From the IMG/VR virus record IMGVR_UViG_3300042898_000589, positions 1 through 64,000 of that record: a DNA stretch of 64,000 bases; one strand, given 5' to 3'. Under the pieces are notes generated by a model. It was given only the letters and a program-made list of their open reading frames with translations, searched no databases and had not been told where the DNA came from. This document shows, in pieces, positions 5,018 to 63,118 of the stretch (positions are counted from its first letter, which is position 1; each line of letters opens with the position of its first letter). This DNA comes from a virus. Made by a program: the position numbers and the translations under genes.

Positions 5018-5025
5018 CAAATTTA
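5018..5025 (-). promoter_or_regulatory. Bacteroidota-type -7 element TAAATTTG
   Basis: This matches TAnnTTTG on the minus strand, overlapping the last codon of the giant gene and about 43 nt before the first fibre-operon start. It would let fibre genes be transcribed separately from the ejection-protein operon. Confidence 0.45.
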
Positions 5026-8000: not shown

Positions 8001-11000
8001 CCAATTCAATGAGGCGTCCAGCTTCTGCATCGATGTTATTAAGGATATTGTTCAGCGTAGTCTCCATTGCTCTTCTATCAGCAAGTGGGAGAACAGTCTG
8101 TTTAGCACCGAGACGTGTAACGATAGCGATGTAGTCATCAAAGGACTCATCGGGAATCATAGAGGCGTCAATAGACAACACACGTTGGAACAGTGGCTTG
8201 ATGGTGGAGTTACCAATGCGTCCAGACTGAATGTTCTTCAGTGCCTTCTTTCTGTTGGTGTTCAGCTGCTTTCTTAGCTGAGTGTTAATCTCCTTCTTGA
8301 CAGCGTTCATTGCTCTGTCTACCTCCAATGCATAGGTTGCTGGAGATACACGCTCAATGGTACGTAGGATTCTGTTAAGGTTGCCAGCAGATACGGTGCT
8401 GATATGCTTATCCTCTTTGAGTTTAGCAATGGTTCTTCTTAACTGCTGAACGAACTCAGTCTTGTCAAGCTTACCCGCTACCTCTTGGAAGTTCTTGAAT
8501 GCTGCAGCAATAGTCTTAGCGTTGCCAGACTCAAGGATAGCATTGATGTAGCCATCCATTGCTGTCTCTATCTTAGCCTTCTGCTCTTTAGCTTCTTGCT
8601 TGACTTTAGCTTTAGCCTCTTGCTCTGCTTTGAACTTACGAGCAGCTTCACTCATACCCTTTTCGCGGGCAGCCATACGTTCGTTACGCTTGGCTTCTGC
8701 TGCCTTACGTATTTCTTCAATGCGCTGCTTGAGTGGTGCCTTACCGTCCGCTTTACGCTGGCGTGTCGCCTGAGGCTCTCTAGACATAGAGCGGAACAGC
8801 TCCTTGTTCTTGGAAGTGGTAGACTCAGAAACAAATCCAAACTTGCTATAGAAGTCAGTGACGAGTCTGTCAGCCATCTTCTCCAACTGCCTGTCGGTGA
8901 ATTTCCTATCTCTTTCTTTGTCGTATTGGAATCTTCTTGTTGGGTATGCGTCAAGAGCTAGCTTAATACCAAGGTCATCAGCTGCTTGAATGATTCTGTT
9001 CATCAGACGGGTGCCAGCTCCTTTGCCAGCCCCATCTGTATCAAGGGCTTCAATAGCTTCGATGTATACATCTCCATTGAGGTTGAGACCTAGTTCGACG
9101 TTCATATCCATCGACTCGCTACCATTTGCAAAGTCACCGAACAAGAATCCACCACGAAGGGTTGGACTTGGGAACAGATATACATCCTCCTGCTCTGCGA
9201 TATGTGCAAACATATCAGCAACTTTCTCGTAGGTGGTTTTGTACTTCTTAAGGTACTGGAAATCATCGTCCATATAGTAGACTCTCATTTCCTGTGGAGT
9301 GAAAACGTCGTCACTAGTTGATGGGAAGAACTTCCGCAACTTCTTGTCAATACCCTCCCTCGCTTCTTGTAATGTCTGCTTAGCTTTCTTCTGGCGTGGC
9401 TGTATATCCATATCACCAGGAGCTTCGAGCTGGTCGTTGACAAGCAGTGACTCTACTGCGTTGTCTTGCAACTCAATACCAGTTCTAATCAGTTCAACTT
9501 GAGAGTCAAAGGTTTTGTTTGCAATGTCTTCAAGGTGCTTTATTCCTTGTACCTTTGCCGCCTCTAGATAAAGCTTTCTGTTTGATTCAAGCAATCTCTG
9601 AGCCTCCTCTGGGTTATCTGACTGGTGATTGAGTATTGTGGTTATATCAACAGTAGGAAAGTTAGGTAATCCAATCTCTGTAAGTGCTGGGAAGTAATCA
9701 CTGTATGGATTATTTCCAAATAAAGGAGAGCTAAAGGTTCCAATTGATTTAATGGATGAGAATATTCCATCGTTTACCTTCGTGGGCAAATATAGTTCAC
9801 CAACACTATTAAGTTTAGATGGTTCTTTTAAGTTTGCAGCATTAGGTATGAATAACATACCACCAACTTCCCTTAAGTTACCAAGAGATTTTCCAGTGAA
9901 GTTATTCATATATAAATTACCAGACACATACTCGACATCACTTATAGACTCCGCATAGAATACGTGGATTTTATTAATTGATTTTAACTTACCAAGAGAC
10001 TTCAATAAAGAATATTGTGCGAATATTGAATTGGCCTCTTTTAGTGACGGCAACTCTAATAAAAGATTATTTCTGTTGGCAAACTCATAAAATGGTTTGA
10101 AGTCTATAACTCCACCACGCGCCGCTCTTGATATATCTGCGTCAATTTTTGTAATCTCATCCCTAGCCTCACTACTTAGATTAACGTATTCTATATTCAA
10201 CTTCCCTACTGATTCTAAGGAGTTCAGCTTAACGTCATTTCTAACATATAATTTATCAGCCTTCTTCAATGAGGATAGGTCAGATATATACTTGGTAGAA
10301 TACGGGTCTATTTCACCAACAGTCTCCAACGACGGAAGCGCAATAGACATTTCTTTAAAACCAAATTTATCCAGCAACTTATTATTGATAGATATATCTC
10401 TAGCACTCTCTAACGCGTTTAGATTGGGAGAGCTGTCTCTGATTGACAATTCTCCAACACTTTTCAGCGACGGGAATGACACAGACACGGGTTGAAATGT
10501 AGGGTCACCAACAGGACGCTCCCTTAAAGAACCATCTAAAAGTCTTAATATGCCACCTACCGATTCAAGTGAATTAACATCAAAAGATTCGCTACCAGTA
10601 TACTCTAAGTTCCCAGTTACGGTCTTTAGTTTGGGCAAATCAAATCTTGAATTAGTATTAAAATTGCCATAAACAGAAGTCAAGCTATTTAACTTTAAGT
10701 CTGTATTTAGCCTGCCGCCTGTGTCTATTAAATCACCAAAGAATACTTCAACATTCTCTAAGCTAAATTGCCCCGTATTCCTTGGCAACATCAATGGCAA
10801 CCAGCCTTCATTAAATATGTATTTCGTTTTATTCGTTGGATATTCTTCGCGTGTGTAATTAAATGAATCATTAAAATAAATTTCATCTTTAATTTCGTCA
10901 GTTACCTGCCCGTTATTTACTTTCCTCTTTATGAAATTTACTATCTTAGAGATGTCTGCGTTTGGAGATTTAGAAAACTCGATAACGTCATCAATTGATT

Positions 11001-14000
11001 TTCTATTTATTATTGGGTTCTCTCTCTTGAAGTCCTTGAACTTTTTAGAGAATTCTATTGAACGTAAATATTGTTCACCGCCATTTACTTCCTCGAGCAG
11101 AAATTTCTCAGCGGTTGCAAGCATACCGTCTTCAATATCTTGCCTGTTACCATTCTCTATGCCACGAGCTTCAGCAACTTTGTCGCCATACATCCTAACA
11201 GCTATTCTTGGAGCTGGCTTCTCTTCACCAGTTACAAAGACATAGAAGTCTCCATCTTTTAATTGCTTATATGCGAGCTCCTTAGTACACCAAGGAGTGT
11301 CCTGCACCAACTGAGAAAGGGCTGACGCCTCCTCATTAATGTCTGGATTATCTCTACCCTCAAACTTAACCCATCTACCCTTGTCAGTCTTCTGGTATTT
11401 GTGCGCATCAATTACATTGAATGCGTTGTCGTACATAAACTGAACATAATCCTTTAGCAGTTCCTTTGAGTCAGACTCATATAGTTTTGCCAGGATACCA
11501 GAGTCGAACGTAGTTATACCACGCATCGTATCTGCAGTACGCTTCTTGTATTGCCCAGTGTTGAGGTCGTAGTTGAACGTAAGAGCGGCGTCAAGAATCA
11601 TATACTTGAATGCATCGTCATAGCTAGACTGCTCAAGGTATTTAATCCATCTACCTATCTCACGCTTCTGTGTGTCTGCGTACTGGTTAATATACTGTTG
11701 CTGTGTTTCACTTTCTCCAGCTTTACTTATTAATGAATCTTTATACGATTCACTAATTTCCCCCCTGTCGTAAGCTTCCTCAGCCTCGTTGATTATGGTT
11801 TCCTTAAGAGCCTGACCCCCCTTGTACATAAATGGAATCTCACCCTCATAGGTTTCGTTAGTCAGGTACTCTTGGACAACATCATTAAACTTCTTGGATA
11901 CAGCTTCCTTGACACCAGTCTCTGTGAACTTTACTCCAGACAGACCGATGCTCTCCATAGCCTGAGCCATACGCTGGTCAACTACGCCAATCTTGGAGTA
12001 CTTGATTACATCCTTTTCTGTTAATGTAATAAGTCCCTTGCGCTTGCGTACATCCTTACGTACCTGTTCTCCTACTGGAGTGTCTACCAACTTGTCAATG
12101 ATAGCCAAGTCCTCGTTGGTAATCTCTTTCCCTGATATAGTCTTGCGGGCGATGGTGTTAAGCATAGCCATCACCTGCGCATCGTCAAGCTTTGTCTGCA
12201 GGTCAACGCCAAATGCATCAGCAAAGTCTTGGATGAACTTCTTGATTGCATTCTTGAATGACTGAATCGCCTTCTCAGACAGACCATAGGTTCTGTTACC
12301 AGCGTAGAAGTCAGACAGGATAGCAACAAGCTCAGCTAGCTTTTCCTCGTCTTTGAAGTTATCCTTGTACTGGCTAGAGAAGTCCTCTAGGAAGTTATAG
12401 ATTTCGCTGTCCTTGCCTAATATGCGCTTGATAGATTCTATCATAGTGCTAGCAATGCGCTGGGCAGTGGGGTCGTTCTTTACTTTATTTAAGAATACGG
12501 CGTGGAATACTTCGTGTGCTATCGTAGATGGAGTAGCACGAGTACCGTTAATGTGGATAGTCTTGGTAGATGGATTGTATTGTCCGTGCTCAGCATCTCC
12601 AGTAGCTCTGGAGTATTCAGCTACGTCATTGTATACTACAATCTTTAGGTCGGGCATAATCTTGGCTACTGCCTTTCTTGCCGTCTCTGCTATCTTACTA
12701 AGCTTCTTGAACGTGGGAGTTCCGTCAGCCATTCTTCTTCTGTTGAGGACGTCTGGGTTGATACCAGACTTGAGCAAGAGAGCTCTCTGTGCTTCTCTTA
12801 GCTTCTCCGCTTCTGTCTTGCGGGAGGTAGTTGGTTCTTCAGCCGTAACTACTGGAGCTTCCTCCTTAGCTAACTGAACACCAGCATCCTTAAAGAACTT
12901 AACGTAGTCATCACTGTTGAACAGGTTGACGTAGCCGTCTCTGCCAATGGATGTCTTGGCAATGTCTTCCGTTAGTCCAGAGTCTACGTGCTTATTGAAC
13001 AGCTCAACGAACTTCTTTGTGGGAAGTTTCTTGTACGCCTCAGCTAACTTAGTCTTGATGTATGCAGGACTGTATACACCAGGGCGAGCGAAGGGTTGAA
13101 CAGTAGGAGCTTCCATAGCTGGAGCTACTGGAGCATCAGCTGCTTGCTGTTGGGCTGCGATTTTCTTTGCGGTAACTCTATCTACGTAATCTCCTAAACC
13201 ACTGTTCTCAACTAAAGAAGCTGTAACATCATTTGCCACAGCATCAATATCTATACCTAGATTAGCAACAGCACTCTCGAAAGCTTGATAGTCATCTTTA
13301 CTTATATCAAAAGCTTCATCTGATAAAATATAGCCAAGCCGCTCTGACATTGGCACACGCTTATTTTCAACACTGTAAGTGAATCCTGGGTCAACATACT
13401 TTCTCACAAACGCAAGTCTACTCCTGTCTGACTTGAACTTGTCGCTATACAATATCTTATTTAGTATGTTAGAGAATATAGTTTTAGAAGACCTTGGATT
13501 ATCATCACTAAGGAATAGCAACTCCTTGGCAGTTAGACTTACAGGACTAGACGGAGAGGCTGTAGCAACAGGCTCTACGGCTGCTTTAGGAGCCTTCTGC
13601 TGCACTTTCTTTTGTAGCTTGACCTTCGCCTTACCTACATCTTTTTTAAGCGCCTTAGCCTCTTCTCTGTACTGACCGATGATGGCGTTAGATTCGTTCT
13701 TCGCATCCTCCAGCTCAGCCCTTAAACTTGCTACAAGCTCCGCCTTCTCTGGCGCTGAAAGTTTGCTGACTCTAGCTTCCTTTATCTGCTCAGCAATCTC
13801 TGCCTTGCGCTCCACGAAGTTATCCTTCTCAATCTGGATGTCATCCTCTAGTGCTCTTAGCTGTTGCTCTTGAGTCTCTAGGTCGAGTTCTTCTTGAGTC
13901 TTCTCAACCTTAGGTGCGGGAGCTTCTTCAGCAACTGGTGCTTCCTCTACAGTTTCTGTAGCTGTTACATCAACTGCTGGAGTCTCTACTTGGACTTCTT

Positions 14001-15795
14001 CCGTGAGACCTTCTTGGGTAGCGACTTGAGGTTCTTGGTCTCCTTGGCCCACTTCTTGCAATCCCATTTGGGGCTCTTCTGCGCGAAGCACGCCTTCATC
14101 TGCTGTTTGCTTTTGAATGGCATCTTGTTGTTCTTTAGTGGTTAATGCTACCTCAGCTTCTGGCTGTGCAGCAGGCTCACGCAAGGACTTAATTTCAGAT
14201 TTGATTTCAGATACTCTATCCTTAGCTGTTTGCGTGGTGGCGGTAGATAGCTTCTTTAGTTCTTTCTCAAGACCTACAATGCGGGAGACGTTCTCTTCAC
14301 TGATGTTTGGTACTGTAGCCTTTACTTCTTTGGCAATGGCATCAGTCTCAATGGCATCAGTAATCTTCTCACCGTATTTGTTTACGTCGTTCTTAATCTT
14401 AATATCCATACCAGCCAAGTCAGCTGGAGATGCGTTGTCCATAATGTCACGCATCTTTGCTTCAGATATCTTCTCTCCGTTTACTACGTAGCTAGGTCTA
14501 CTACCAACAACAGAAGCAATGTCAATGACCGTACCAGGAGCTTCGCCAACACCTTCGAATAAAATCTCGGCAGTATCCATTTTCTGTCCAGCAACAACGC
14601 GACCCGCAACCTCGCCAAGAGAACCACCAGCCATCTCTATACCACCAGCTGCTGCAACGCGAGTAGCCTTTCCTGCTGTTGTCGTTGCAGTCTTAGCTCC
14701 AACACTACCAGCTAACTTACCAGTCATACCGTCAACAACACCGATGGTCACACCACGACCAAGAGCTCGCATACGAATGTCGCTAACAAGCTTTTCGTCA
14801 TTCAAAAGAGTTCTTACGTTCTCCTTTGTGAAGTCCATACCTCTCTTGGTTAGCTCTTCATTAAGGAGCTCTGAGAATGTAAGACCAGCCTCCATAGTAG
14901 CGCCCGCTGCACCCATAGCAAATGGTAATGAAGCTATACCAGTAACAAGACCACCAGGTCCAGTGGTGGCAGCGCCAGCAGCAGTAGCGCCACCAACAAC
15001 AAGCCCACCAGAAGCAAGGGATTTTGGGTTGAACATACCAACGACACTAGATACCAATATCTCTGGCACGACTGTTGGATTGTAGGCCACGCCTTTCATC
15101 CAGCCAAAGACGCCACCGCCTTCCTCCTCATATATCTTGGCAAAGTTTTGCATCTCATCAGAAGGCTTAAGCTTCTGTCCAGACTTTGCTATCTCGATAT
15201 ACTTGTTAATATCTTCATCAGTAGTCTTACTACCCTTCTCAATGAAGGTCCAAGATGGAGACACAATCTTACCTTGCTGACTACCAACAGCAACAGCACG
15301 ACCAGTATCATCAATGAAGTCAGCAAAAGCAGAGCCAACTGGGTTCCAAGGGCTACGCATAGCGTTCAAGAACTGACCGAGCCCGCCAGTAAAGTAATCC
15401 TCTTCCTCTTCTGGTTTTCCAGTAGGAAGTTCAGTTGGTCTTAATCTGGTATTGATACTACCAGAGGCTTCAAAGTTAGCCTTCTTAGCTTCAGCCTTTC
15501 TATCTACTACAGTCTTCGCAAACTCATCAACCTCCTCAACCTCTTGAATCGGCGCAACAGACGGGCGAGTCTCTGCAAGAGTCTTAGGTAAAGTAGATTG
15601 GGGAGCGGAAGCGGATTCCTCTGACGGTTCGCCAGAAGCTTTTTTTTTTTCGTCGAACTCGACAGCATCAGCGTACTGAGGATACTTGGCTACAACTTTC
15701 TTAGCTAGAGTGTAGTCATCAATATCCTTGTACTGTGGATACTTAGCCTTAATAGCTTGTGCGAATTCCTGTACAGATTTTTTAGGCTCAGCCAT
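5023..15795 (-). CDS. Giant internal virion/ejection protein with protease, LRR and GNAT-like segments (3590 aa)
   Basis: This 10.8-kb gene takes about 17% of the window. Residues 1-45 carry two KYPQY motifs, common at the N-termini of giant phage ejected proteins. A Gly/Ala-rich hydrophobic stretch follows (about 260-310), then Ala/Glu/Lys coiled coil (about 540-770). A zinc-metallopeptidase motif HEVFH is at about 1094-1098, with a downstream acidic helix. An unknown phage domain with TPWCTK is near 1500. About 1640-2065 holds leucine-rich-like repeats (LxSLxSVGG...). A GNAT-like acetyltransferase segment (GAGKGAGTRLMNRII) lies near 2250, then long helical regions. A second hydrophobic stretch followed by an E-rich run is near 3330-3370. 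It sits between the 495-aa internal protein and the fibres. The inferred role is a cargo protein injected with DNA. The family assignment of sub-domains is by motif only. Confidence 0.8.
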   Translation of the reverse strand: MAEPKKSVQEFAQAIKAKYPQYKDIDDYTLAKKVVAKYPQYADAVEFDEKKKASGEPSEESASAPQSTLPKTLAETRPSVAPIQEVEEVDEFAKTVVDRKAEAKKANFEASGSINTRLRPTELPTGKPEEEEDYFTGGLGQFLNAMRSPWNPVGSAFADFIDDTGRAVAVGSQQGKIVSPSWTFIEKGSKTTDEDINKYIEIAKSGQKLKPSDEMQNFAKIYEEEGGGVFGWMKGVAYNPTVVPEILVSSVVGMFNPKSLASGGLVVGGATAAGAATTGPGGLVTGIASLPFAMGAAGATMEAGLTFSELLNEELTKRGMDFTKENVRTLLNDEKLVSDIRMRALGRGVTIGVVDGMTGKLAGSVGAKTATTTAGKATRVAAAGGIEMAGGSLGEVAGRVVAGQKMDTAEILFEGVGEAPGTVIDIASVVGSRPSYVVNGEKISEAKMRDIMDNASPADLAGMDIKIKNDVNKYGEKITDAIETDAIAKEVKATVPNISEENVSRIVGLEKELKKLSTATTQTAKDRVSEIKSEIKSLREPAAQPEAEVALTTKEQQDAIQKQTADEGVLRAEEPQMGLQEVGQGDQEPQVATQEGLTEEVQVETPAVDVTATETVEEAPVAEEAPAPKVEKTQEELDLETQEQQLRALEDDIQIEKDNFVERKAEIAEQIKEARVSKLSAPEKAELVASLRAELEDAKNESNAIIGQYREEAKALKKDVGKAKVKLQKKVQQKAPKAAVEPVATASPSSPVSLTAKELLFLSDDNPRSSKTIFSNILNKILYSDKFKSDRSRLAFVRKYVDPGFTYSVENKRVPMSERLGYILSDEAFDISKDDYQAFESAVANLGIDIDAVANDVTASLVENSGLGDYVDRVTAKKIAAQQQAADAPVAPAMEAPTVQPFARPGVYSPAYIKTKLAEAYKKLPTKKFVELFNKHVDSGLTEDIAKTSIGRDGYVNLFNSDDYVKFFKDAGVQLAKEEAPVVTAEEPTTSRKTEAEKLREAQRALLLKSGINPDVLNRRRMADGTPTFKKLSKIAETARKAVAKIMPDLKIVVYNDVAEYSRATGDAEHGQYNPSTKTIHINGTRATPSTIAHEVFHAVFLNKVKNDPTAQRIASTMIESIKRILGKDSEIYNFLEDFSSQYKDNFKDEEKLAELVAILSDFYAGNRTYGLSEKAIQSFKNAIKKFIQDFADAFGVDLQTKLDDAQVMAMLNTIARKTISGKEITNEDLAIIDKLVDTPVGEQVRKDVRKRKGLITLTEKDVIKYSKIGVVDQRMAQAMESIGLSGVKFTETGVKEAVSKKFNDVVQEYLTNETYEGEIPFMYKGGQALKETIINEAEEAYDRGEISESYKDSLISKAGESETQQQYINQYADTQKREIGRWIKYLEQSSYDDAFKYMILDAALTFNYDLNTGQYKKRTADTMRGITTFDSGILAKLYESDSKELLKDYVQFMYDNAFNVIDAHKYQKTDKGRWVKFEGRDNPDINEEASALSQLVQDTPWCTKELAYKQLKDGDFYVFVTGEEKPAPRIAVRMYGDKVAEARGIENGNRQDIEDGMLATAEKFLLEEVNGGEQYLRSIEFSKKFKDFKRENPIINRKSIDDVIEFSKSPNADISKIVNFIKRKVNNGQVTDEIKDEIYFNDSFNYTREEYPTNKTKYIFNEGWLPLMLPRNTGQFSLENVEVFFGDLIDTGGRLNTDLKLNSLTSVYGNFNTNSRFDLPKLKTVTGNLEYTGSESFDVNSLESVGGILRLLDGSLRERPVGDPTFQPVSVSFPSLKSVGELSIRDSSPNLNALESARDISINNKLLDKFGFKEMSIALPSLETVGEIDPYSTKYISDLSSLKKADKLYVRNDVKLNSLESVGKLNIEYVNLSSEARDEITKIDADISRAARGGVIDFKPFYEFANRNNLLLELPSLKEANSIFAQYSLLKSLGKLKSINKIHVFYAESISDVEYVSGNLYMNNFTGKSLGNLREVGGMLFIPNAANLKEPSKLNSVGELYLPTKVNDGIFSSIKSIGTFSSPLFGNNPYSDYFPALTEIGLPNFPTVDITTILNHQSDNPEEAQRLLESNRKLYLEAAKVQGIKHLEDIANKTFDSQVELIRTGIELQDNAVESLLVNDQLEAPGDMDIQPRQKKAKQTLQEAREGIDKKLRKFFPSTSDDVFTPQEMRVYYMDDDFQYLKKYKTTYEKVADMFAHIAEQEDVYLFPSPTLRGGFLFGDFANGSESMDMNVELGLNLNGDVYIEAIEALDTDGAGKGAGTRLMNRIIQAADDLGIKLALDAYPTRRFQYDKERDRKFTDRQLEKMADRLVTDFYSKFGFVSESTTSKNKELFRSMSREPQATRQRKADGKAPLKQRIEEIRKAAEAKRNERMAAREKGMSEAARKFKAEQEAKAKVKQEAKEQKAKIETAMDGYINAILESGNAKTIAAAFKNFQEVAGKLDKTEFVQQLRRTIAKLKEDKHISTVSAGNLNRILRTIERVSPATYALEVDRAMNAVKKEINTQLRKQLNTNRKKALKNIQSGRIGNSTIKPLFQRVLSIDASMIPDESFDDYIAIVTRLGAKQTVLPLADRRAMETTLNNILNNIDAEAGRLIELGEMYNDFISSNNLGEEAYSKVLDKMKSEGLITEKEKEMMKRYKSIILSEAKVASAGKRAESQEARAALEEELSNVDINVNALENRDDRAIATAIQDNLDAASEMTSQDLRKLLLVIDNINNGFLPHMGEVVRRKLVSINDGKKLASALNKVSLPLGEKIIVNVKGALMRLMGRKATETGTVRLAAERNPAAFIDEVFGNFKTTPIYDTLIRPMASAFSRFQRDFDVAVNKLNTAEKRLYEAKKSDNEFRSSMYKIQMYLIQREYETNVGNPEVRPAVEWIKATIDAIEEGKLYNEATAAELREQLTKFSEDGQVSTEKIEKSLTPAEKNLIKAIDEVNGSIRDKAVHVSDVIRGEGIEARDNYVHIQVFNDGNNNPLKEIDAFTERYTASTKAKSLITRTGKVNPINLDPYQTAVRGLKMTLLDYHMTPAIKQVNGTLAASKDMVNQRQNLTAVESLMQGFNEGVLANAVGSSMSPDITDTLVTNGYRAVLASVRRAIAETASNITFAISNPAQFTAGVKSYYKLDNDISAGDVLRNVGSVHTTRLFGGETLTSPQVEKSGFRNTGGVKTEMQPDVINKMARISKLGRIATNKIADVADFLMSTPDAMVSRPIWFGAFENSFKELTGKEPDLKKISDNDEAYMEANRDSIKKASKEADKQVTQAAASNNPYETIAKLRVNEKDTSSKKIYKAVNGFISRFAIFEYNTARRAIYAMIGNGSISRKEGAALLTGVAMRSIVYVMASSYIGGIMSALAQSALANLGLAGLDEEEEEEDLMEAILPNADTLPKLYRSIGGALANIFINRNFGNVVKNINGLLVETANEEYGQFLRNGKDYDPFENNILMNQLSSAMTPGNSNEKIASFVAAFAGPLSPVARTFISTFKLANGAINNKTADSRKEKLKELKIRVPLEFGGHLGLVPVYNDVRDITLDYLRDDLNKEKDFRQEVKRLINQYPNGGDKFEKEMDKTFAKYTRFKTRQAINKQKELLEDN

Positions 15796-39675: not shown

Positions 39676-40440
39676 ATGACTCCAGTAAAGCATTACTTTA
39701 TCCAAGTAGACGATGTAGACGTATTGCAGCGTCGCCTATCCAACGGAAAGATACTTTTCCTCCCGCGAAGAGATGGAGACAAGTACCGAAGCAACAGCTT
39801 CCACGGAGTACTAGCAGGAGTCCCTGAAGGTTCACGTCTACGCGTAGGTGAAACCGTGTACGTCAACTACCAAGCCATCGACACTGCAGAAAAGATTGAC
39901 GGTAAGTACTACTACATCGTCCCCGAGAAACTTATTGTCGCTAAAGGAGAACTTGAAAAGACAGCATTCAACTCGCTGTTAGTCAAGCCTATACAAGCTG
40001 AGCGTCTTACTTCTTCTGTTCTAGAAATCATCCAATACGACCTACCAGCAGTAACTAAGTCCGAAGTAATCTCCAGCGACATCAAGGGATACAAAGCAGG
40101 AGACATCATCGTCCACGAGAAAGACATTGACTGGGAGTTTTTTGTCAACGAAGAGAAGTTCCTATACATCACAATGCTCCACCGCATTATCTCTGTCAAC
40201 GACAAGCTAGTAAACAACTACGTAGAAATCCAGCCGCTCCCCAGATATAAAGAACATCACGGTCTCAAAATCCCCTACACAGACCCCTGGGCAACAGGAG
40301 TATCACAACCCTACACCGACCACCAACTCTACATAGAGAGAAACAGAGTCCAACTAGAACGATACATCCACGAAGACTACATCCACGCAGCTATACATCC
40401 CGCTCAATCCCCAGCCGCTCAAGAGCTCGTAGCAGATTAA
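39676..40440 (+). CDS. GroES-like tandem beta-barrel protein (254 aa)
   Basis: Two segments resemble the co-chaperonin core in strand order: GVLAGVPEGSRLRVGETVYV to IDGKYYYIVPEKLIVAK (about residues 45-95), and IKGYKAGDIIVHEKDID to FLYITMLHRIISV (about 138-178). This is like two divergent copies of GroES. Its length is about twice that of GroES plus a polar tail. The 3' end overlaps a convergent minus-strand gene by 50 nt. If correct, it would help host GroEL fold capsid proteins. The similarity is by pattern only. Confidence 0.45.
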   Translation: MTPVKHYFIQVDDVDVLQRRLSNGKILFLPRRDGDKYRSNSFHGVLAGVPEGSRLRVGETVYVNYQAIDTAEKIDGKYYYIVPEKLIVAKGELEKTAFNSLLVKPIQAERLTSSVLEIIQYDLPAVTKSEVISSDIKGYKAGDIIVHEKDIDWEFFVNEEKFLYITMLHRIISVNDKLVNNYVEIQPLPRYKEHHGLKIPYTDPWATGVSQPYTDHQLYIERNRVQLERYIHEDYIHAAIHPAQSPAAQELVAD

Positions 40441-43745: not shown

Positions 43746-43937
43746 ATGTATATGAAGAACTTTGTTTTCAGTATGCCCGTCAATGTATGGGGGCGTACTA
43801 AGCGTCCAACCGAACCGAAGCAATACGTATCGGTTCAAGCACCCAATGAAAAGGAAGCGCGGCGACGTGTTGCCTTTAATATGGGACGGGGTAAATGTCC
43901 CGCAGGTATTCAATTGTTAAACCTAATCCACTTGTAG
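43746..43937 (+). CDS. Small basic protein upstream of amidoligase (63 aa)
   Basis: The product has two strands and one helix: NFVFSMPVNVWGRT, then YVSVQAPNEKEARRRVAFN. Such short N-E-K-E-A proteins with a single helix are common phage additions. Its TAG is 2 nt before the amidoligase ATG, so it is translated with the cassette. A second start is possible at 43752. Confidence 0.6.
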   Translation: MYMKNFVFSMPVNVWGRTKRPTEPKQYVSVQAPNEKEARRRVAFNMGRGKCPAGIQLLNLIHL

Positions 43938-43939
43938 AA

Positions 43940-45469
43940 ATGAAATTTCATCCTTCACAAATTGCCGTCGGTGACCTTGTGTATCGTATCGGCTACCTTG
44001 AAAACGGACTATGGACTGTCCGTAGTATCCAAGAGTCCATAGGCGGCGACAACGACATAGTAGACGTACTCAACCACAACGGACGACACGACTACGCCGC
44101 GTATCGCAGTCGCTTTATCCATAAGTCTATCGTTGACGCTATGGAGGTGGGGCGTGTATTGCTTGTACACAATCTTCGGTACGTTATTGAATCGGTTGAC
44201 TTCTCGTCGGGGTATATCAATATCTCCAATGTTGAAGGCGGCGGGATAGTTCGTCTTGACTATGACCACGTAAGCGGCGGTATAGAACTACTTCAAGAAA
44301 GTATTGAGTTGGTTGAATGTCAAGCTAATCCAATGTTAGTTCGCACTATTCCAAAGAATAGGTGTACCAAGTACAAAGATAAGTGGGTACTGACTAGCGA
44401 TATGCTTTGCACAGAGACAGAGCGTGACGAGGTTCCTTCTCACGCTTGGCGCTTTGACAGAGAGTATATTCAGTTATATCATTGCAACATACTCTTACTT
44501 CGCGATGAGTTAGACGACTTAGAGTATACCGAGGCAACGGCGGGTCGTGCAGAAGGTCACGCTATTCCTGTTGACGACTCAATCTATGTTGAGGACTCGG
44601 GCAATACGTACCACAGTGACGACCAAGGCAACTACTTCTATTGGTCTGACAGATTTGACCAATACGTAGAGGGCTGTGATAATGATAGCGATAGACACTC
44701 CTACCACGACGGTCCACGTCACGACTATTCCGACGGCGCTACTTATCGCTTCGGTGTAGAGGTAGAGAAAGAAGACTACGACGTACTCAGTAGTTATACA
44801 CTCAGTGAGTGCGACGATACGGGTTGGTCTCGTGAGGAGGACGGTTCACTTGACAGTGAGTCGGGCTATGAGTTCGTGTCCCCTATGTTTGACTTGTTCG
44901 GTGATAGGTTTGACGAGAGTCTTGCGGGACGTGTGGTTGCCGACCACGTTAACGGTGACTACTCTACTTCTTGTGGCGGGCATATGTCCTTCTCTATCAG
45001 GGGACACGACGGGCTAGAGACCTACAATCGTGTTAAGGGTTTCGTCCCCTTGATACTATCGCTGTACAGAGGTCGTCTAACTAACTCGTACTCAACAGCA
45101 TACAAAGACCCCGTAGGTCGTGGTCGTGGTGCTATCAACGTAGCGAATGGCTACGTAGAGTTCCGTGTGTTCGCTGCCGTGCGCAACGTACAGAATCTCA
45201 AGAATCGCCGTGACTTACTACGAGTTATGGCTAACAATCTTGACCGCTCACCGCTATACTTTATCCGTATGGCTATGGACGAGTCAAGTGAACTGCATCA
45301 AATCTTACGCCGCGCCTATGACCGTGACAAGTTATACGCCCGCATCGCATTGTGTGCGGGCATCGCTGAGGAGATGACGGGTAAGAACTATATGCGGTTC
45401 GTTACCTGTGTAGACAAAGACCAACGCGCTACCGCTAAGCGTAGCGCACAATCATTAATCCAAGAATAA
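43940..45469 (+). CDS. Amidoligase 1, GS-fold COOH-NH2 ligase (509 aa)
   Basis: I place the start at 43940 (MKFHPSQIAVGDLVYRIGY), 2 nt after the upstream stop; the frame extends to 43895 but overlaps that gene. The C-terminal 240 residues carry the putative amidoligase pattern (glutamine synthetase-like fold): YRFGVEVEKED near 269, GWSREEDGSLDSESGYEFVSP near 295 (split in two parts), SCGGHMSFS near 350, and YVEFRVFAAVRNVQNLKNRRD near 405 (in parts). The N-terminal 265 residues are an unrelated domain with a KOW/SH3-like start and an acidic Asp/Tyr-rich stretch. Known family members join an amine to a carboxylate with ATP. The partner is the next gene, a class II amidotransferase 6 nt on. Confidence 0.8.
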   Translation: MKFHPSQIAVGDLVYRIGYLENGLWTVRSIQESIGGDNDIVDVLNHNGRHDYAAYRSRFIHKSIVDAMEVGRVLLVHNLRYVIESVDFSSGYINISNVEGGGIVRLDYDHVSGGIELLQESIELVECQANPMLVRTIPKNRCTKYKDKWVLTSDMLCTETERDEVPSHAWRFDREYIQLYHCNILLLRDELDDLEYTEATAGRAEGHAIPVDDSIYVEDSGNTYHSDDQGNYFYWSDRFDQYVEGCDNDSDRHSYHDGPRHDYSDGATYRFGVEVEKEDYDVLSSYTLSECDDTGWSREEDGSLDSESGYEFVSPMFDLFGDRFDESLAGRVVADHVNGDYSTSCGGHMSFSIRGHDGLETYNRVKGFVPLILSLYRGRLTNSYSTAYKDPVGRGRGAINVANGYVEFRVFAAVRNVQNLKNRRDLLRVMANNLDRSPLYFIRMAMDESSELHQILRRAYDRDKLYARIALCAGIAEEMTGKNYMRFVTCVDKDQRATAKRSAQSLIQE

Positions 45470-45475
45470 TTTATT

Positions 45476-46312
45476 ATGTGTATCGCAATCCTTAACAAAG
45501 GCGGGCAAATCTCCCGCGAATCTTTACTCAACTGTTGGGAATCCAACGACGACGGCGCAGGTATCTTGTATGTCAACAACGACAAGCTCGGTGTGTACAA
45601 GCAACCTAACAAGGGACGCAAGTCCTTTGAGCAGTTCTACTCTACGTATCAACGACTCTATAATTCTAGTGCGGGTATGCCTATGCTACTGCACTTCCGT
45701 ATCGCTACGCACGGGTTCGGTGATAAGTTCCTTCACCCATTCCTTGTATCAGATACGCTAGGTCTAGTACACAACGGCATCATCAGCGGGCTAGGTGACC
45801 ACAACTACTCAGATACCGCTGAGTTCCGTGACATTATTGCGGGTGTTCCCGACGAGTGGAAGCAAGACGTATCGCTGTTCTCTATCCCACTTGTTGACCA
45901 AGTTACTGCCGACCTACTAGGTACGTACAACAAGGTCATCTTCCTAGATGCACAAGGCGACCACGTTATCTACAACGAGGAGTCGGGTATATGGGACGAA
46001 GACAATTGGTATTCCAATAGTGCTTATCGTTCTCGTGTCCGCTACTATGGACACTACGCACAGCCACTGTCAACTGCCGCCACAAAGTATTATGGGTGGG
46101 ACGAAGACGATTTGATTGACGGTGTTGATGACAAGCGCACACAAGATTACTACGACGAGATTACTGATGACCTCACCGAAGAATTGTTTGACTGTGCTGA
46201 GTGTCTTGAGACTTGTCAAGTAGACGGAGATGCTCAGTGTGTGTCTTGCGGGTCATACAATCCCGCTGCTGTTGACTATGTATTACGTAAAAACTATGCT
46301 GATTTATTATGA
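45476..46312 (+). CDS. Class II glutamine amidotransferase 1 with zinc ribbon (278 aa)
   Basis: The Ntn-hydrolase fold is shown by MCIAI at the N-terminus, with Cys2 as nucleophile after Met removal, HFRIATHG near residue 76, and HNG near 100. It should hydrolyse glutamine to supply ammonia. A CAECLETC...CVSCG zinc-ribbon is present at about 240-262, absent in its paralogue. ATG 45476 is 6 nt after amidoligase 1, and its TGA overlaps amidoligase 2 (ATGA). The context says it feeds ammonia to an amidoligase. Confidence 0.85.
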   Translation: MCIAILNKGGQISRESLLNCWESNDDGAGILYVNNDKLGVYKQPNKGRKSFEQFYSTYQRLYNSSAGMPMLLHFRIATHGFGDKFLHPFLVSDTLGLVHNGIISGLGDHNYSDTAEFRDIIAGVPDEWKQDVSLFSIPLVDQVTADLLGTYNKVIFLDAQGDHVIYNEESGIWDEDNWYSNSAYRSRVRYYGHYAQPLSTAATKYYGWDEDDLIDGVDDKRTQDYYDEITDDLTEELFDCAECLETCQVDGDAQCVSCGSYNPAAVDYVLRKNYADLL

Positions 46313-47883
46313 TAACTTACAATGTAATTGAACGCAAGTTCTACAACTCAGAGGGCGGAGTGTCCTCGGGTGCTATGTCTATCTACCGAGATTGTCTAAG
46401 CGTCCTCAATCAAGGTAATCACATACCCTTTACTCTGTTTGCTACGCATCGTACTCACTCTATCAATGGTAGTATGATAGACCTTGTACGTTCTCAACAG
46501 TATGTACTCAGTGAGGATAGTACGGGGCGAAGACTAAGCGGCAATCCCCAAGATAATCATATATCTGTTGCAGGTGATGGTTACACGTACGATACCGTTG
46601 ACTTTCTATCCCCGTTTGTTTGTTTCGTCAACCGAGTTGACGACGACCTAACTATCAACTATGTTAACGGTCTCAGCATTGTTGTAATGCCAGGAGTCTG
46701 CCCATCTAGTGATGCTTCTCGTATAGTAACTACTCATTTGCTTGACAGCAATGGAGAAGTTGAGGAAGAGTTCATTGCAACTGTTGATAACGTGGGTGCT
46801 ATCAGGGTTATTAACTCAGCAATCTTTGAACACGGCACAGCATTTATGCAACACATAAGTGCACTACCTAGTCAAGACAGTGAGTCCTTGCCAAGCAATA
46901 GACATACGAACGAGCTCATCCATATGTCGTCAACACCTAGAGCCATAGATGATAGCCGTGGTCCTCGTCTATTCCGATACCATCACGGACCACGAGGCAA
47001 CAAACTTATTGGTTCTGATAACTTCCGCATAGGGTTTGAGGTAGAGAAAGAAGATGAGGTATCGCGTAACAAGTACGCTGCCCGTGTCGTTTCCAAAGAA
47101 ACTATGTGGTCTAAGGAACGTGATGGTTCACTTTGTGAAAGAAGCGGGTTTGAGTTAGTGTCACCTGTCTATGGACTGTATGAGTCAGTGCTTGACGATG
47201 ACCTCAAGATGGACATCTTGCGGGAGCATATCAACGCTGACATATCATCTAGTTGCGGCGGTCACGTCCACCTATCCAAGCGTGCCACGACTGGAGAGGA
47301 GTTGTTTGACTCTCTATCTTCTTGGATACCAATGATTTACTCACTGTATGTTGGTCGTATCCATCGTCACTACTGCCGAGTCAAGAAGAACGATGACATC
47401 ATAAACGGAGAGGATAAGTACCAATCAATACGAATCTTTGATGACCGTGTTGAGTTCCGTATCATCTCTGCTGTACGTGACGTTGACAATCTAGTATGGC
47501 GTCGTGACTTGTTTCGTATCATCTGCCGCAACCTAGACATCACTCCCTTCTCTGTTGTGTCTATGCTTAGTGACAAGAAGTCCGAACTCTATAAGCATCT
47601 TGCCGAGGTGTACTCAGAGTCTAGCATCCGTAAGAAACTTAAACTCTATGCTTTCTTTGCGGACGAACTGCTTGACGTTGAGCATAAGGTAAGTATGGAC
47701 GGTGTTCGTGCCGCTGATATGTTCTCTAGTGCACAGATTCAACACCTTAAGAACCATCAGTTCAACCTAGGTGATGACGATGGTGCTAATGCTGCTACTA
47801 TCTCAGCAGTTAGGATAAACAACTCCTTCATTGTATCAGACACAGTTCCAACCTTCCTACCATCAGATACTTTACCCTATTAA
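46309..47883 (+). CDS. Amidoligase 2, GS-fold COOH-NH2 ligase (524 aa)
   Basis: This is a diverged paralogue of amidoligase 1. Shared motifs are FRIGFEVEKED near 239, MWSKERDGSL, GFELVSPVY, SCGGHVHLS (the canonical CGGHVH here) and VEFRIISAVRDVDNL. The N-terminal 235 residues are unrelated to the other copy, with only a Y-H-x-G-P-R segment in common. The two ligases may thus act on different substrates. The gene overlaps amidotransferase 1 by 4 nt and lies 12 nt before amidotransferase 2. Confidence 0.8.
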   Translation: MITYNVIERKFYNSEGGVSSGAMSIYRDCLSVLNQGNHIPFTLFATHRTHSINGSMIDLVRSQQYVLSEDSTGRRLSGNPQDNHISVAGDGYTYDTVDFLSPFVCFVNRVDDDLTINYVNGLSIVVMPGVCPSSDASRIVTTHLLDSNGEVEEEFIATVDNVGAIRVINSAIFEHGTAFMQHISALPSQDSESLPSNRHTNELIHMSSTPRAIDDSRGPRLFRYHHGPRGNKLIGSDNFRIGFEVEKEDEVSRNKYAARVVSKETMWSKERDGSLCERSGFELVSPVYGLYESVLDDDLKMDILREHINADISSSCGGHVHLSKRATTGEELFDSLSSWIPMIYSLYVGRIHRHYCRVKKNDDIINGEDKYQSIRIFDDRVEFRIISAVRDVDNLVWRRDLFRIICRNLDITPFSVVSMLSDKKSELYKHLAEVYSESSIRKKLKLYAFFADELLDVEHKVSMDGVRAADMFSSAQIQHLKNHQFNLGDDDGANAATISAVRINNSFIVSDTVPTFLPSDTLPY

Positions 47884-47895
47884 TTGTAATAACCT

Positions 47896-48978
47896 ATGTG
47901 TATAATTGTAGTAAACAAAGAGGGGCGTGACATCGCTGCCCCTATCATTGACAAGTGTATAACTAATAACCCGCACGGATTCGGCATCTATTTCCTTGAC
48001 GACCAGCGTCTGCACAAGACTATGGATATGGACGAGGCACGCTATATGCTAGCGTCACGCCGACCATACGTAGCCCACTGCCGATACGCTACCGTCGGAG
48101 AGAAGACAGTAGACAACGTGCATCCCTTTGAGGTTCAGGAAGATGCGTTCTTATTCCACAACGGAACAGTACGCACACGCCCCGAGGATACAACCAAGTC
48201 TGACTCTTGGGCATTGGCTCAACTCATCTCCCGCTATGACCCTATGGGTGATGAGGTACAGCACATCCTTGAGATGACTGACTCACGATTCTGTATTGTC
48301 AAGGGCAACGAGTTCAAGTTATTCAATGAGGACTTATGGCACGAGCACGAGGGTGTTATGTACTCCAAGGATAACGTACTGCCATCTGAGTTAGTGTTTG
48401 TTTATGAGGCATCACTTCTCAAGCACGACTCGTACCATACTAAGTTTCTTACCGATGCAGGTGAAGCGTATCTAGAAAATGCTTACCTTTACCGACTGAA
48501 AAGAGGTACTCTTGTGAAGGGTTGTATGGTACACGAAAAGGATAAGCACATTATTGAGGGCTGTTTGTTCAGCGGCGTCACTCAGTATGACCTCGGCAAT
48601 CTAGATAGATTCCACGCGGGCGCTAGGCGTACGTCTGTTACTGTCAAAGACCTTGACGGTAATAGTATCCGTGCTATCACTTGGTTGTATGACTTCCCTA
48701 CTACTGAGTGTGATTGGGGTAGCCACTCTATGGACTTCACACCTACATATTGGCACGGCAACTTGAACCTGCCAGCCACATCAATAGACCCCTTCACCAA
48801 GTTCTGCCGCGAGACATATGATAGTTACCTACCTACTACACACACAGCACAGCAGACAGCTAATTGGATGGAGACTAAGAAGTTTAATCTAGAAAGAATA
48901 GTCAACTACTACACAGACAAGACGGGATTCGTTCCCACTATCAGTCAATTGAATAACAAATTAATCTATATGTCATAA
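47896..48978 (+). CDS. Class II glutamine amidotransferase 2 (360 aa)
   Basis: MCIIVVN gives the Cys2 nucleophile, followed by GFGIYFLDD, AHCRYATVG near 70 and FHNGTVR near 95. The order and spacing match the class II amidotransferase domain. A C-terminal extension of about 180 residues has no zinc ribbon and no recognised domain. TAATG couples it to the next gene (48976-48980). It completes a two-unit ligase/amidotransferase operon. Confidence 0.85.
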   Translation: MCIIVVNKEGRDIAAPIIDKCITNNPHGFGIYFLDDQRLHKTMDMDEARYMLASRRPYVAHCRYATVGEKTVDNVHPFEVQEDAFLFHNGTVRTRPEDTTKSDSWALAQLISRYDPMGDEVQHILEMTDSRFCIVKGNEFKLFNEDLWHEHEGVMYSKDNVLPSELVFVYEASLLKHDSYHTKFLTDAGEAYLENAYLYRLKRGTLVKGCMVHEKDKHIIEGCLFSGVTQYDLGNLDRFHAGARRTSVTVKDLDGNSIRAITWLYDFPTTECDWGSHSMDFTPTYWHGNLNLPATSIDPFTKFCRETYDSYLPTTHTAQQTANWMETKKFNLERIVNYYTDKTGFVPTISQLNNKLIYMS

Positions 48979-49579: not shown

Positions 49580-49818
49580 AACTAAACGAAGAACAATTCC
49601 AACAGTCAGAATTCAAAATCAAACTGAAAGTAGACAGTAAGTTCTACGATGTAACTGTAAAGCCAGACAGCGATGAGATGTGGGTACCTATCGGAGACAC
49701 ACCATACGATATGTATATGTATGTCGGTACTGATAAGCATCTGAATATCAGTGTGTTGAAGTTCGCTGAGCCGCACGTTAAAGTTAACTTTGAAATCGTA
49801 TCAATTAAAATCAAATGA
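49576..49818 (+). CDS. Hypothetical beta-rich protein (80 aa)
   Basis: Regular strands (FKIKLKVDSKFYDVTVKPD, then VKVNFEIVSIKIK) suggest a small beta sandwich. It is coupled by ATGA at both ends, upstream and to the cell-wall hydrolase. Function unknown. Confidence 0.6.
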   Translation: MKLNEEQFQQSEFKIKLKVDSKFYDVTVKPDSDEMWVPIGDTPYDMYMYVGTDKHLNISVLKFAEPHVKVNFEIVSIKIK

Positions 49819-50366
49819 TATACAAGTTCAACAAGGAGACGCTCACCTTTGATAGGGTGGGCTCTCCAACTAAGAGGCTGTTCGCAGCCATATCACTAAC
49901 AGCATTACTATCAGTAGCGGGAGGCGTACTGATGGGGAGTCGTGAGATATACACGCCCGAAGAAGTTATCCAAGTAAACATTAATGAGGAACCCTTCTCT
50001 GAGCAGGCTCTCGTTAGACTACTGAAGAAGATGAACCTTAAGTATCCGCACATCGCTCTTGCTCAAGCAAAGATTGAAAGCGGTGGGTATAAGTCCTTCT
50101 TATTCAGAGAGAACAACAACCTGTTTGGTATGCGTGAGGCTAAGGTCAGAGTCAATATGGCTATGGGTACACGACATAAGCACGCCTACTATGAGTCGTG
50201 GCAAGAGAGTGTCATCGACTATGCTATGTGGTGTGCTACCTATGGTGCTAAGTGTAAGACAGAAGACCAGTTCCTCAATCTATTGGCGGGCTATGCTGAA
50301 GCATCTCAGTACAAGGAGACAATCATCAGTGTAGTTAACAAGAACAATCTTAAATCTAAGTTCTAA
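49815..50366 (+). CDS. Membrane-anchored glucosaminidase-like cell-wall hydrolase (183 aa)
   Basis: A membrane segment at about residues 22-40 (LFAAISLTALLSVAGGVL) leads to a domain with YPHIALAQAKIESGGYKS, NNLFGMR and YYESWQESVIDYAMW, the pattern of the mannosyl-glycoprotein endo-beta-N-acetylglucosaminidase family. The Glu in KIESG is the probable catalytic acid. It would act on peptidoglycan from the inner membrane. It is in the early operon, near the amidoligase cassette, and not beside the endolysin at 63 kb, so it may have a role other than lysis. Confidence 0.75.
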   Translation: MIYKFNKETLTFDRVGSPTKRLFAAISLTALLSVAGGVLMGSREIYTPEEVIQVNINEEPFSEQALVRLLKKMNLKYPHIALAQAKIESGGYKSFLFRENNNLFGMREAKVRVNMAMGTRHKHAYYESWQESVIDYAMWCATYGAKCKTEDQFLNLLAGYAEASQYKETIISVVNKNNLKSKF

Positions 50367-51391: not shown

Positions 51392-51535
51392 GTGGACAAC
51401 TTTCCTTCACAATGGGACTTCGAAGGCGTGCGTACGTGCCTGTATTGCAGTGAGATGCTCAATGCTCACCGCCCGCTGGACTTGTATTGTAGTGATGACT
51501 GTGAGTCCACACATACAAAGACAAGAATATACTAG
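51392..51535 (+). CDS. Small zinc-ribbon protein with GTG start (47 aa)
   Basis: The frame from GTG 51392 to TAG 51533-51535 carries CLYC and CSDDC (Cys-x2-Cys and Cys-x3-Cys spaced by about 15 residues), a small zinc-binding fold. The GTG is chosen because the -7 element is 4 nt upstream, as at other leaderless starts. The last base of the stop codon is the first base of the tRNA. Function unknown, possibly nucleic-acid binding. Confidence 0.6.
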   Translation: MDNFPSQWDFEGVRTCLYCSEMLNAHRPLDLYCSDDCESTHTKTRIY

Positions 51536-51606
51536 GCCTCATAGTTTAACGCATAAAACTCTCCTCTTCTAAAGGAGTAATGACAGTTGGATTCTGTCTG
51601 AGGCTA
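51535..51606 (+). tRNA. tRNA-Arg, anticodon TCT
   Basis: A full cloverleaf can be drawn: acceptor 51535-51541 with 51599-51605 (one G-T at the first pair); D stem GTTT/AAAC (51544-51547, 51556-51559); anticodon stem CTCCT/AGGAG (51561-51565, 51573-51577) with loop CTTCTAA and anticodon TCT at 51568-51570; 4-nt variable loop; and T stem GACAG/CTGTC (51582-51586, 51594-51598). The discriminator base is A at 51606. CCA is not encoded. The T loop is TTGGATT and the D loop lacks GG, so the normal G19-C56 pair looks replaced by C19-G56. It decodes AGA. Confidence 0.8.
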
Positions 51607-51624
51607 CAAATTAAATTATTAATT

Positions 51625-62267: not shown

Positions 62268-62682
62268 GTGCAGTTAGGTTATCAATTAATCTTGCAGTAC
62301 CCATAACCAAAACAACAGTAGCCACAACCATCCATAGCACTCTGTTGATTCTGTTCTTATCGCAGCGGATGATGCTCTTATACACCGTTACCTTACGGTA
62401 GATAGGATAGGGTTTGACCACCGTCTGAACAACGAGCTTACCCTTCCCGCCTCTCTTTAATGTGGTGACAATAGTATCATTGGTAATTACTACGCTGTCC
62501 TTGAAGTTCACGTTGACAGAGTCCTTGAACTTAATAGCATTAGTCCACAGCGTATCAAACTTGTAGACGATACGTGTGTCGATAATGTCTGGGTCTTTCT
62601 GAATGGCTTTACGCATATGCCACTCAGCAGAACAGCTACTGATTAGCCCAATCAGAATAAGGGATGTAATAAGTCTTACCAT
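62254..62682 (-). CDS. One-piece spanin candidate, lipoprotein with C-terminal membrane helix (142 aa)
   Basis: The N-terminus is a lipoprotein signal (MVRLITSLILIGLISSC with Cys17), which would place the mature N-end in the outer membrane. A periplasmic part follows with beta-like alternation (FKDSVNVNFKDSVVITND). The C-terminus is a membrane helix (VLWMVVATVVLVMGTARLI, about 114-132). This layout is that of unimolecular spanins such as phage T1 gp11, which link and fuse the two membranes at lysis. It overlaps the endolysin gene by 47 nt. Confidence 0.6.
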   Translation of the reverse strand: MVRLITSLILIGLISSCSAEWHMRKAIQKDPDIIDTRIVYKFDTLWTNAIKFKDSVNVNFKDSVVITNDTIVTTLKRGGKGKLVVQTVVKPYPIYRKVTVYKSIIRCDKNRINRVLWMVVATVVLVMGTARLIDNLTARGKD

Positions 62683-63118
62683 TGGAGTTTCTTTTTGCTA
62701 CTAATATTTCTTTCTCTTCTTCCCTTCCCTTGACGATGCCTACGTGTACCCAAGCAGGGTTACCATATGCATCAGGGTGTTCTAAGATTAACTCAGTAAA
62801 GGGTAGGTTATCCTTGATGTAGTGGAAGATGTCTCTGTTAGGAATAGAGTTGCGTCCATCCATATCTATGTCGGCAGCAGAAGCTGTTACGTGGAAAGAC
62901 GTAGCAGAACCATTTACAGCCTTATTAAGAGCACTTGAGCGGTACCAAGAGGAGATGTATACCGCAGTATTGAAACGCTCTCTAACGGGGTCTAAGACAG
63001 TCTTAGCGAGGTACTCTGCATTAGCAAGGTGGGCGGCAGTCAAACTGTTGGAGATGCCCAGTCGTTTTGCTGTATGAGACTTCTCTACCTCAGACCTATG
63101 GAAGTACTTACTCTCCAT
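62636..63118 (-). CDS. Peptidase M15-type endolysin (160 aa)
   Basis: Zinc peptidase motifs are visible: YISSWYRSSALNKAV near residue 54, SFHVTASAADID near 73 (H and D ligands), and WVHVGI near 122 (His ligand). This is the Peptidase_M15_3 pattern, cutting peptidoglycan stem peptides. There is no signal peptide, so a holin is needed. It sits between the holin candidate and the spanin candidate, making a lysis cassette. Confidence 0.8.
   Translation of the reverse strand: MESKYFHRSEVEKSHTAKRLGISNSLTAAHLANAEYLAKTVLDPVRERFNTAVYISSWYRSSALNKAVNGSATSFHVTASAADIDMDGRNSIPNRDIFHYIKDNLPFTELILEHPDAYGNPAWVHVGIVKGREEEKEILVAKRNSNGKTYYIPYSDWANQ

Follow-up and report, generated by a model that had tools for sequence, protein, structure and literature searches.

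A phage early-region cluster of two paralogous amidoligases and two class II amidotransferases of separate lineages

In the early region of a bacterial virus (source record of 65,275 bases), genes for two amidoligases alternate with genes for two class II glutamine amidotransferases. The questions raised by this locus are whether it is an undescribed system formed by duplication, as a first-pass annotation of the same DNA proposed, and what its products might do. We analyzed a stretch of 64,000 nucleotides that is part of the record, which we refer to as the window. Four plus-strand open reading frames at positions 43940-48978, designated Lig1, Gat1, Lig2 and Gat2 (Table 1), make up the module. 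Their coordinates confirm the tight coupling that had been reported, with successive intergenic gaps of 6, -4 and 12 nt. The Lig1 protein is ~509 aa long if translated from position 43940, or 524 aa from an alternative in-frame ATG at position 43895, which overlaps the preceding open reading frame (stop at 43937).

Table 1. Genes of the module and the adjoining small gene.
Feature	Position	Strand	Assignment	Basis
Lig1	43940..45469	+	GS-fold-type amidoligase	Open reading frame; 38% identity to Lig2; invariant motifs; Lig1 clade
Gat1	45476..46312	+	Class II (Ntn) glutamine amidotransferase	Open reading frame; catalytic residues; clade A; family profile
Lig2	46309..47883	+	GS-fold amidoligase, paralog of Lig1	AlphaFold model; VIA-align; Lig2 clade
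Gat2	47896..48978	+	Class II amidotransferase (residues 1-163) with degenerate cyclotransferase-fold domain (~163-278)	
Small conserved gene, 78 aa	48978..49214	+		Start overlaps the Gat2 stop; homologs lie behind the module in triad contigs

The window is organized by strand: the minus strand encodes the structural genes and the plus strand the early ones. The early region also holds genes for thymidylate synthase and MazG. For the capsid protein a match to SU10-type capsids (PF17236) was obtained, and its relatives among named phages are podoviruses of Cellulophaga, Flavobacterium and Maribacter (~24% identity); from this the host may reasonably be guessed to belong to the Bacteroidota. Within the virion block, the minus strand contains an open reading frame of 3590 codons (5023-15795) that probably encodes a giant virion protein. 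A single tRNA-Arg gene (anticodon TCT, 51535-51607) overlaps the start of the next predicted open reading frame (51580). At 39676-40440 there is a gene for a 254-aa protein with a short GroES-like co-chaperonin stretch (phrog_3188, E = 2e-5); minus-strand GroEL genes neighbor the ligase module in 37 of the 119 related loci introduced below, and none was recognized within the window. Just 3' of the module, positions 49815-50366 encode a glucosaminidase-domain protein (PF01832, E = 1.2e-15), a cell-wall enzyme distinct from the endolysin (62636-63118), and its homologs occupy the same position in 8 related loci.

Lig1 and Lig2 share 38% identity across ~235 aa, outside which their N-terminal regions have no detectable relationship (BLASTP E = 0.32), in agreement with the earlier description of these regions as unrelated domains. 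The FGVEVE (or FGFEVE-type), DGSL, VSP and CGGH motifs that had been noted are indeed present in both ligases, with little or no variation across 51 relatives. The same holds in the 51 ligases for the individual residues E244, E246, D272, S274, E282, C316-H319, R350, E382 and R384, so that the conserved set reads E-x-E, D-G-S, E, CGGH, R and E-x-R. From the order of the motifs we infer that these residues would form the counterpart of the ATP/metal site of glutamine synthetase (GS). An AlphaFold model of Lig2 has pLDDT values above 90 over residues ~230-480, and VIA-align superimposed residues 235-426 on human GS with a Z score of 9.1 (rmsd 3.7, 175 aligned residues). The top 50 structural matches of this model are glutamine synthetases almost throughout, and the ligase YbdK scores Z = 8.6; the GS matches found by Foldseek were weak (E ~0.01), and the clear match came from VIA-align. 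As modeled, Lig2 has the GS fold that the first-pass annotation had assigned to both ligases, and Lig1 would share it by virtue of its 38% identity to Lig2.

The Pfam model Amidoligase_2 (PF12224) gave 18.4 bits with Lig2 (E = 0.0021; the cut-off is 22), Lig1 had no Pfam match, and 13 of the 51 relatives matched Amidoligase_2 at E <= 0.01 (best 3.2e-7). Sequence searches for solved structures found none for the ligases. A scan of genome contigs with the ligase alignment, which detects fairly close relatives only, returned no bacterial relatives, and this speaks for a phage-borne family. Judging from dN/dS between orthologs (0.13-0.27 for the two ligases, and 0.09-0.27 with Gat1 included), both Lig1 and Lig2 are under purifying selection.

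Both amidotransferases carry the Cys2 that had been reported. C2 is invariant in a set of 15 sequences that includes Gat1 and Gat2, as are the class II Arg, Asn-Gly and Asp residues (R63, N89-G90 and D103 in Gat2 numbering). The amidotransferase family profile matches GlmS and PurF structures by sequence, and the Gat2 model aligns to the GlmS glutaminase and to EgtC with Z scores of 12.6-13.3, so the Ntn fold was recovered for Gat1 by sequence profile and for Gat2 by model. The C-terminus of Gat1 contains a CxxC...CxxC stretch resembling a zinc ribbon. The combination of GS-fold ligases and class II amidotransferases, the chemistry class that had been proposed, is well supported by the profile and by the Lig2 and Gat2 models.

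The amidotransferases are not a duplicated pair, as the annotation had supposed. Gat1 and Gat2 share ~15 bits, and a tree of 92 amidotransferase domains fully separates Gat1-type (clade A) from Gat2-type (clade B) sequences with support of 100/100. Single-sequence scans of viral contigs with Gat1 or Gat2 found no relatives, which were recovered with alignments. In the tree Gat2 adjoins the sequence from locus L099, a placement that is unreliable because it joins two long branches, whereas the position of Gat2 within clade B is firm. The idea of a duplicated operon therefore holds for Lig1 and Lig2, which are old paralogs, and fails for Gat1 and Gat2, which come from two separate clades. Tandem duplication of a ligase-amidotransferase pair is ruled out by this tree.

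Gat2 is more than the class II amidotransferase that its Cys2 indicates: it also has a C-terminal cyclotransferase-fold domain, which had been overlooked. The region from residue ~163 to ~278, modeled with modest confidence (pLDDT ~40-80), aligns to GGCT and GGACT structures with Z scores of 8.1-10.7, and the domain is predicted to keep the cyclotransferase fold. The GGACT model (PF06094) matches 38 of the 39 aligned Gat2-type members, the sole exception being Gat2 itself; in the whole record no match to PF06094 and no separate GGCT gene were found. Two motifs that the remaining 38 sequences keep with little or no change are altered in Gat2, where the signature loop YGTL has become YEAS and LEGHP has become FHAGA. 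The catalytic Glu of LEGHP (E82 in human GGACT) aligns to His240, and on these substitutions the domain looks catalytically dead. The structure of the E82Q mutant of human GGACT appears among the structural matches of Gat2.

We compared the module with 119 representative loci, half of them picked via the amidotransferase and half via the ligase, on contigs that may be incomplete or chimeric. Every one of the 119 contains a ligase and 115 contain an amidotransferase, the contig ending at the ligase in the remaining 4; because the loci were gathered partly by one gene and partly by the other, this co-occurrence is not an unbiased rate. The Gat2-type alignment collected 80 loci, and a ligase was detected by profile in 65 of these, with a profile that misses some ligases, for example the annotated amidoligase of phage C75C1. 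Eight other phage contigs (L001, L009, L014, L020, L021, L024, L025 and L027) have the arrangement Lig1-Gat1-Lig2 with no second amidotransferase behind it, and searches of these eight whole records, several of which are fragments, found no Gat2-type gene. Two ligases with one amidotransferase thus appear to be the usual state. The suggestion of a separate ammonia donor for each ligase is not supported: in these eight contigs two ligases surround a single Gat1, and Gat2 belongs to another lineage.

The ligase duplication is old, since orthologs of Lig1 and Lig2 fall into separate supported clades in the ligase tree (11 rows with support 100/99, and 9 rows with support 100/98, respectively). 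Conservation of the small gene that follows Gat2 is limited to the triad group and L069. In L009 and L025 there is a direct overlap between this gene and the end of Lig2, whereas in the window Gat2 stands between the two, and the small gene apparently marks the site where Gat2 was inserted or retained. The simplest history is apparently that Gat2 was gained behind Lig2, from a phage lineage with a ligase and an amidotransferase-GGACT fusion. We found two ligases together with two amidotransferases in no other sampled locus. Separate ligase additions around one amidotransferase are seen in L057 and L173. In L173 (4622-9760) two ligases surround one amidotransferase-GGACT fusion, apparently an independent case, and repeated small proteins of a YYE(N/T)S type lie between and before the ligases. 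Clustering of the neighboring genes in the 119 loci found, ligase and amidotransferase aside, no gene common to most loci, and no conserved envelope or peptide-substrate gene linked across loci. A conserved small peptide substrate adjoining the module was rejected as a candidate, because the clustering showed none across most loci.

The suggestion that the cluster is an undescribed system is not supported; it matches a known type of cassette in part and has an unusual build. A description of phage amidoligase and amidotransferase genes is credited to Iyer et al. 2009 by the citing passages in PMC10580990 and PMC11318856. Sets of two amidoligases, an amidotransferase, a GGCT and an ATP-grasp protein are known from phages RIO-1, phiEco32, 7-11, PA11, tf, LUZ24, PaP3 and CW02 (PMC5498523), and the cassettes of phiEco32, LUZ24, RIO-1 and others have been treated in several reports (PMC5498523, PMC3890496, PMC10580990). 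As in these cassettes, the early region has neighboring genes for a GS-type amidoligase and a class II amidotransferase, and in the cassettes the presence of two amidoligases is usual as well (PMC5498523, PMC3890496). LUZ24 itself carries the amidoligase, amidotransferase, GGCT and ATP-grasp gene set; its gp18 has the same order of FGFEVE, DGSL, H and EFR motifs as the ligases of the window, and its gp19 has the amidotransferase core. Unlike the phiEco32, LUZ24 and RIO-1 cassettes, the window has two ligases from a single family, paralogous to each other, two amidotransferases that differ in lineage, and no recognizable active GGCT or GGACT, only the degenerate domain of Gat2. The second ligase of the phiEco32 type, COOH-NH2_lig (PF14395), was not found in the 65 kb record, which may be incomplete, whereas LUZ24 was positive in the same test. 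The ATP-grasp model R2K_3 had no match in the record; the ATP-grasp protein of LUZ24 is likewise without a Pfam match. Gat2 has the same lineage and domain order as the fusion proteins in modules of a ligase with an amidotransferase-GGACT (for example Podoviridae sp. ctfjg026, MW202828; phage C75C1), but its cyclotransferase is degenerate and the ligase in front of it comes from the other lineage.

The reading that we favor, with modest confidence, is that this is an early-region amide-bond module in which the ligases amidate carboxylates with ammonia derived from the Gat proteins, Gat2 having been gained later. Each ligase would activate a carboxylate with ATP to give an acyl phosphate, and glutamine-derived ammonia, from a shared Gat1 or from Gat2, would attack it to form a carboxamide. 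The differing N-terminal regions would direct Lig1 and Lig2 to different targets, and two amide modifications on two substrates are possible. At a guess, these targets would most likely be envelope or peptidoglycan peptides of the host, or host proteins, altered early in infection. Such a cluster would have begun with the old ligase duplication around Gat1, followed by the gain of Gat2 behind Lig2. Modification of peptidoglycan has been proposed for cassettes of this kind (PMC5498523, PMC6256558). Several observations count against the favored reading: no linked envelope or peptide-substrate gene was found across the loci, the Pfam match is sub-threshold for Lig2 and missing for Lig1, the C-terminal domain of Gat2 is modeled with modest confidence, and the best structural match to Gat2, tied with GlmS, is EgtC, which takes off gamma-glutamyl groups and does not donate ammonia.

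A less probable alternative, which we nevertheless take seriously, is that the ligase joins the gamma-carboxyl of glutamate to an amine and that the Ntn enzyme removes it again as an EgtC-like amidohydrolase; the cyclotransferase fused in the Gat2 lineage would be a second remover, yielding 5-oxoproline. The known substrates of GGACT are gamma-glutamyl amides, which suits both the fusion of this domain in 38 of 39 Gat2-type proteins and the standalone GGACT copies that two A-type phages carry ~8-9 kb away from the module, but most phages of the Gat1 lineage have no cyclotransferase domain and in the window's Gat2 its active site is lost. In ergothioneine synthesis, the gamma-glutamyl ligase EgtA and the class II amidotransferase homolog EgtC, an amidohydrolase, act in this way and are paired much as the proteins of the window are (PMC9103826); EgtC belongs, however, to a five-gene thiol pathway, and no such pathway was seen within the window. 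EgtC is also the best structural match to Gat2 (Z = 13.3), but it ties with GlmS, and by sequence the profile of the family finds GlmS and PurF. EgtC-like removal and ammonia donation are indistinguishable from sequence. In a fuller version of this alternative, which we think unlikely, a GS-fold ligase marks a host amine target with gamma-glutamate, which the Ntn enzyme and cyclotransferase remove or trim, and in the window's phage the dead cyclotransferase would turn a normally transient gamma-glutamyl mark into a permanent one. If this were true, two ligases with different N-terminal readers would put a permanent gamma-glutamyl mark on two targets.

We are similarly doubtful that the product of the module is a secondary metabolite or a small diffusible one, or that the module serves nitrogen recycling as auxiliary metabolism, with no macromolecule being modified. 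In OM43 phages and Phage-ZRK32, the genes for amidoligase, amidotransferase and cyclotransferase have been classed as auxiliary metabolic genes (PMC10580990, PMC10945688), but the growth effects of Phage-ZRK32 were not linked to those genes, and no further conserved biosynthetic, transport or tailoring gene adjoins the module. Hypermodification of phage DNA bases via amide formation is very improbable, because although the module sits among early replication and nucleotide genes such as those for thymidylate synthase and MazG, the thymidylate synthase resembles ordinary phage thymidylate synthases and no base-modifying enzyme was recognized nearby.

Cassettes of this kind occur in many phages and have been noted since 2009, with a substrate that the literature has only proposed. 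Our comparison splits them into two lineages, one with an amidotransferase alone and one with an amidotransferase-GGACT fusion, the ligase nearly always adjoining, and it indicates that duplication of the ligase around a single amidotransferase recurs. The window's phage, a natural variant in which two ligases and two partners come with an apparently dead cyclotransferase, offers ready combinations of genes from which the roles of the cassette members could be worked out.
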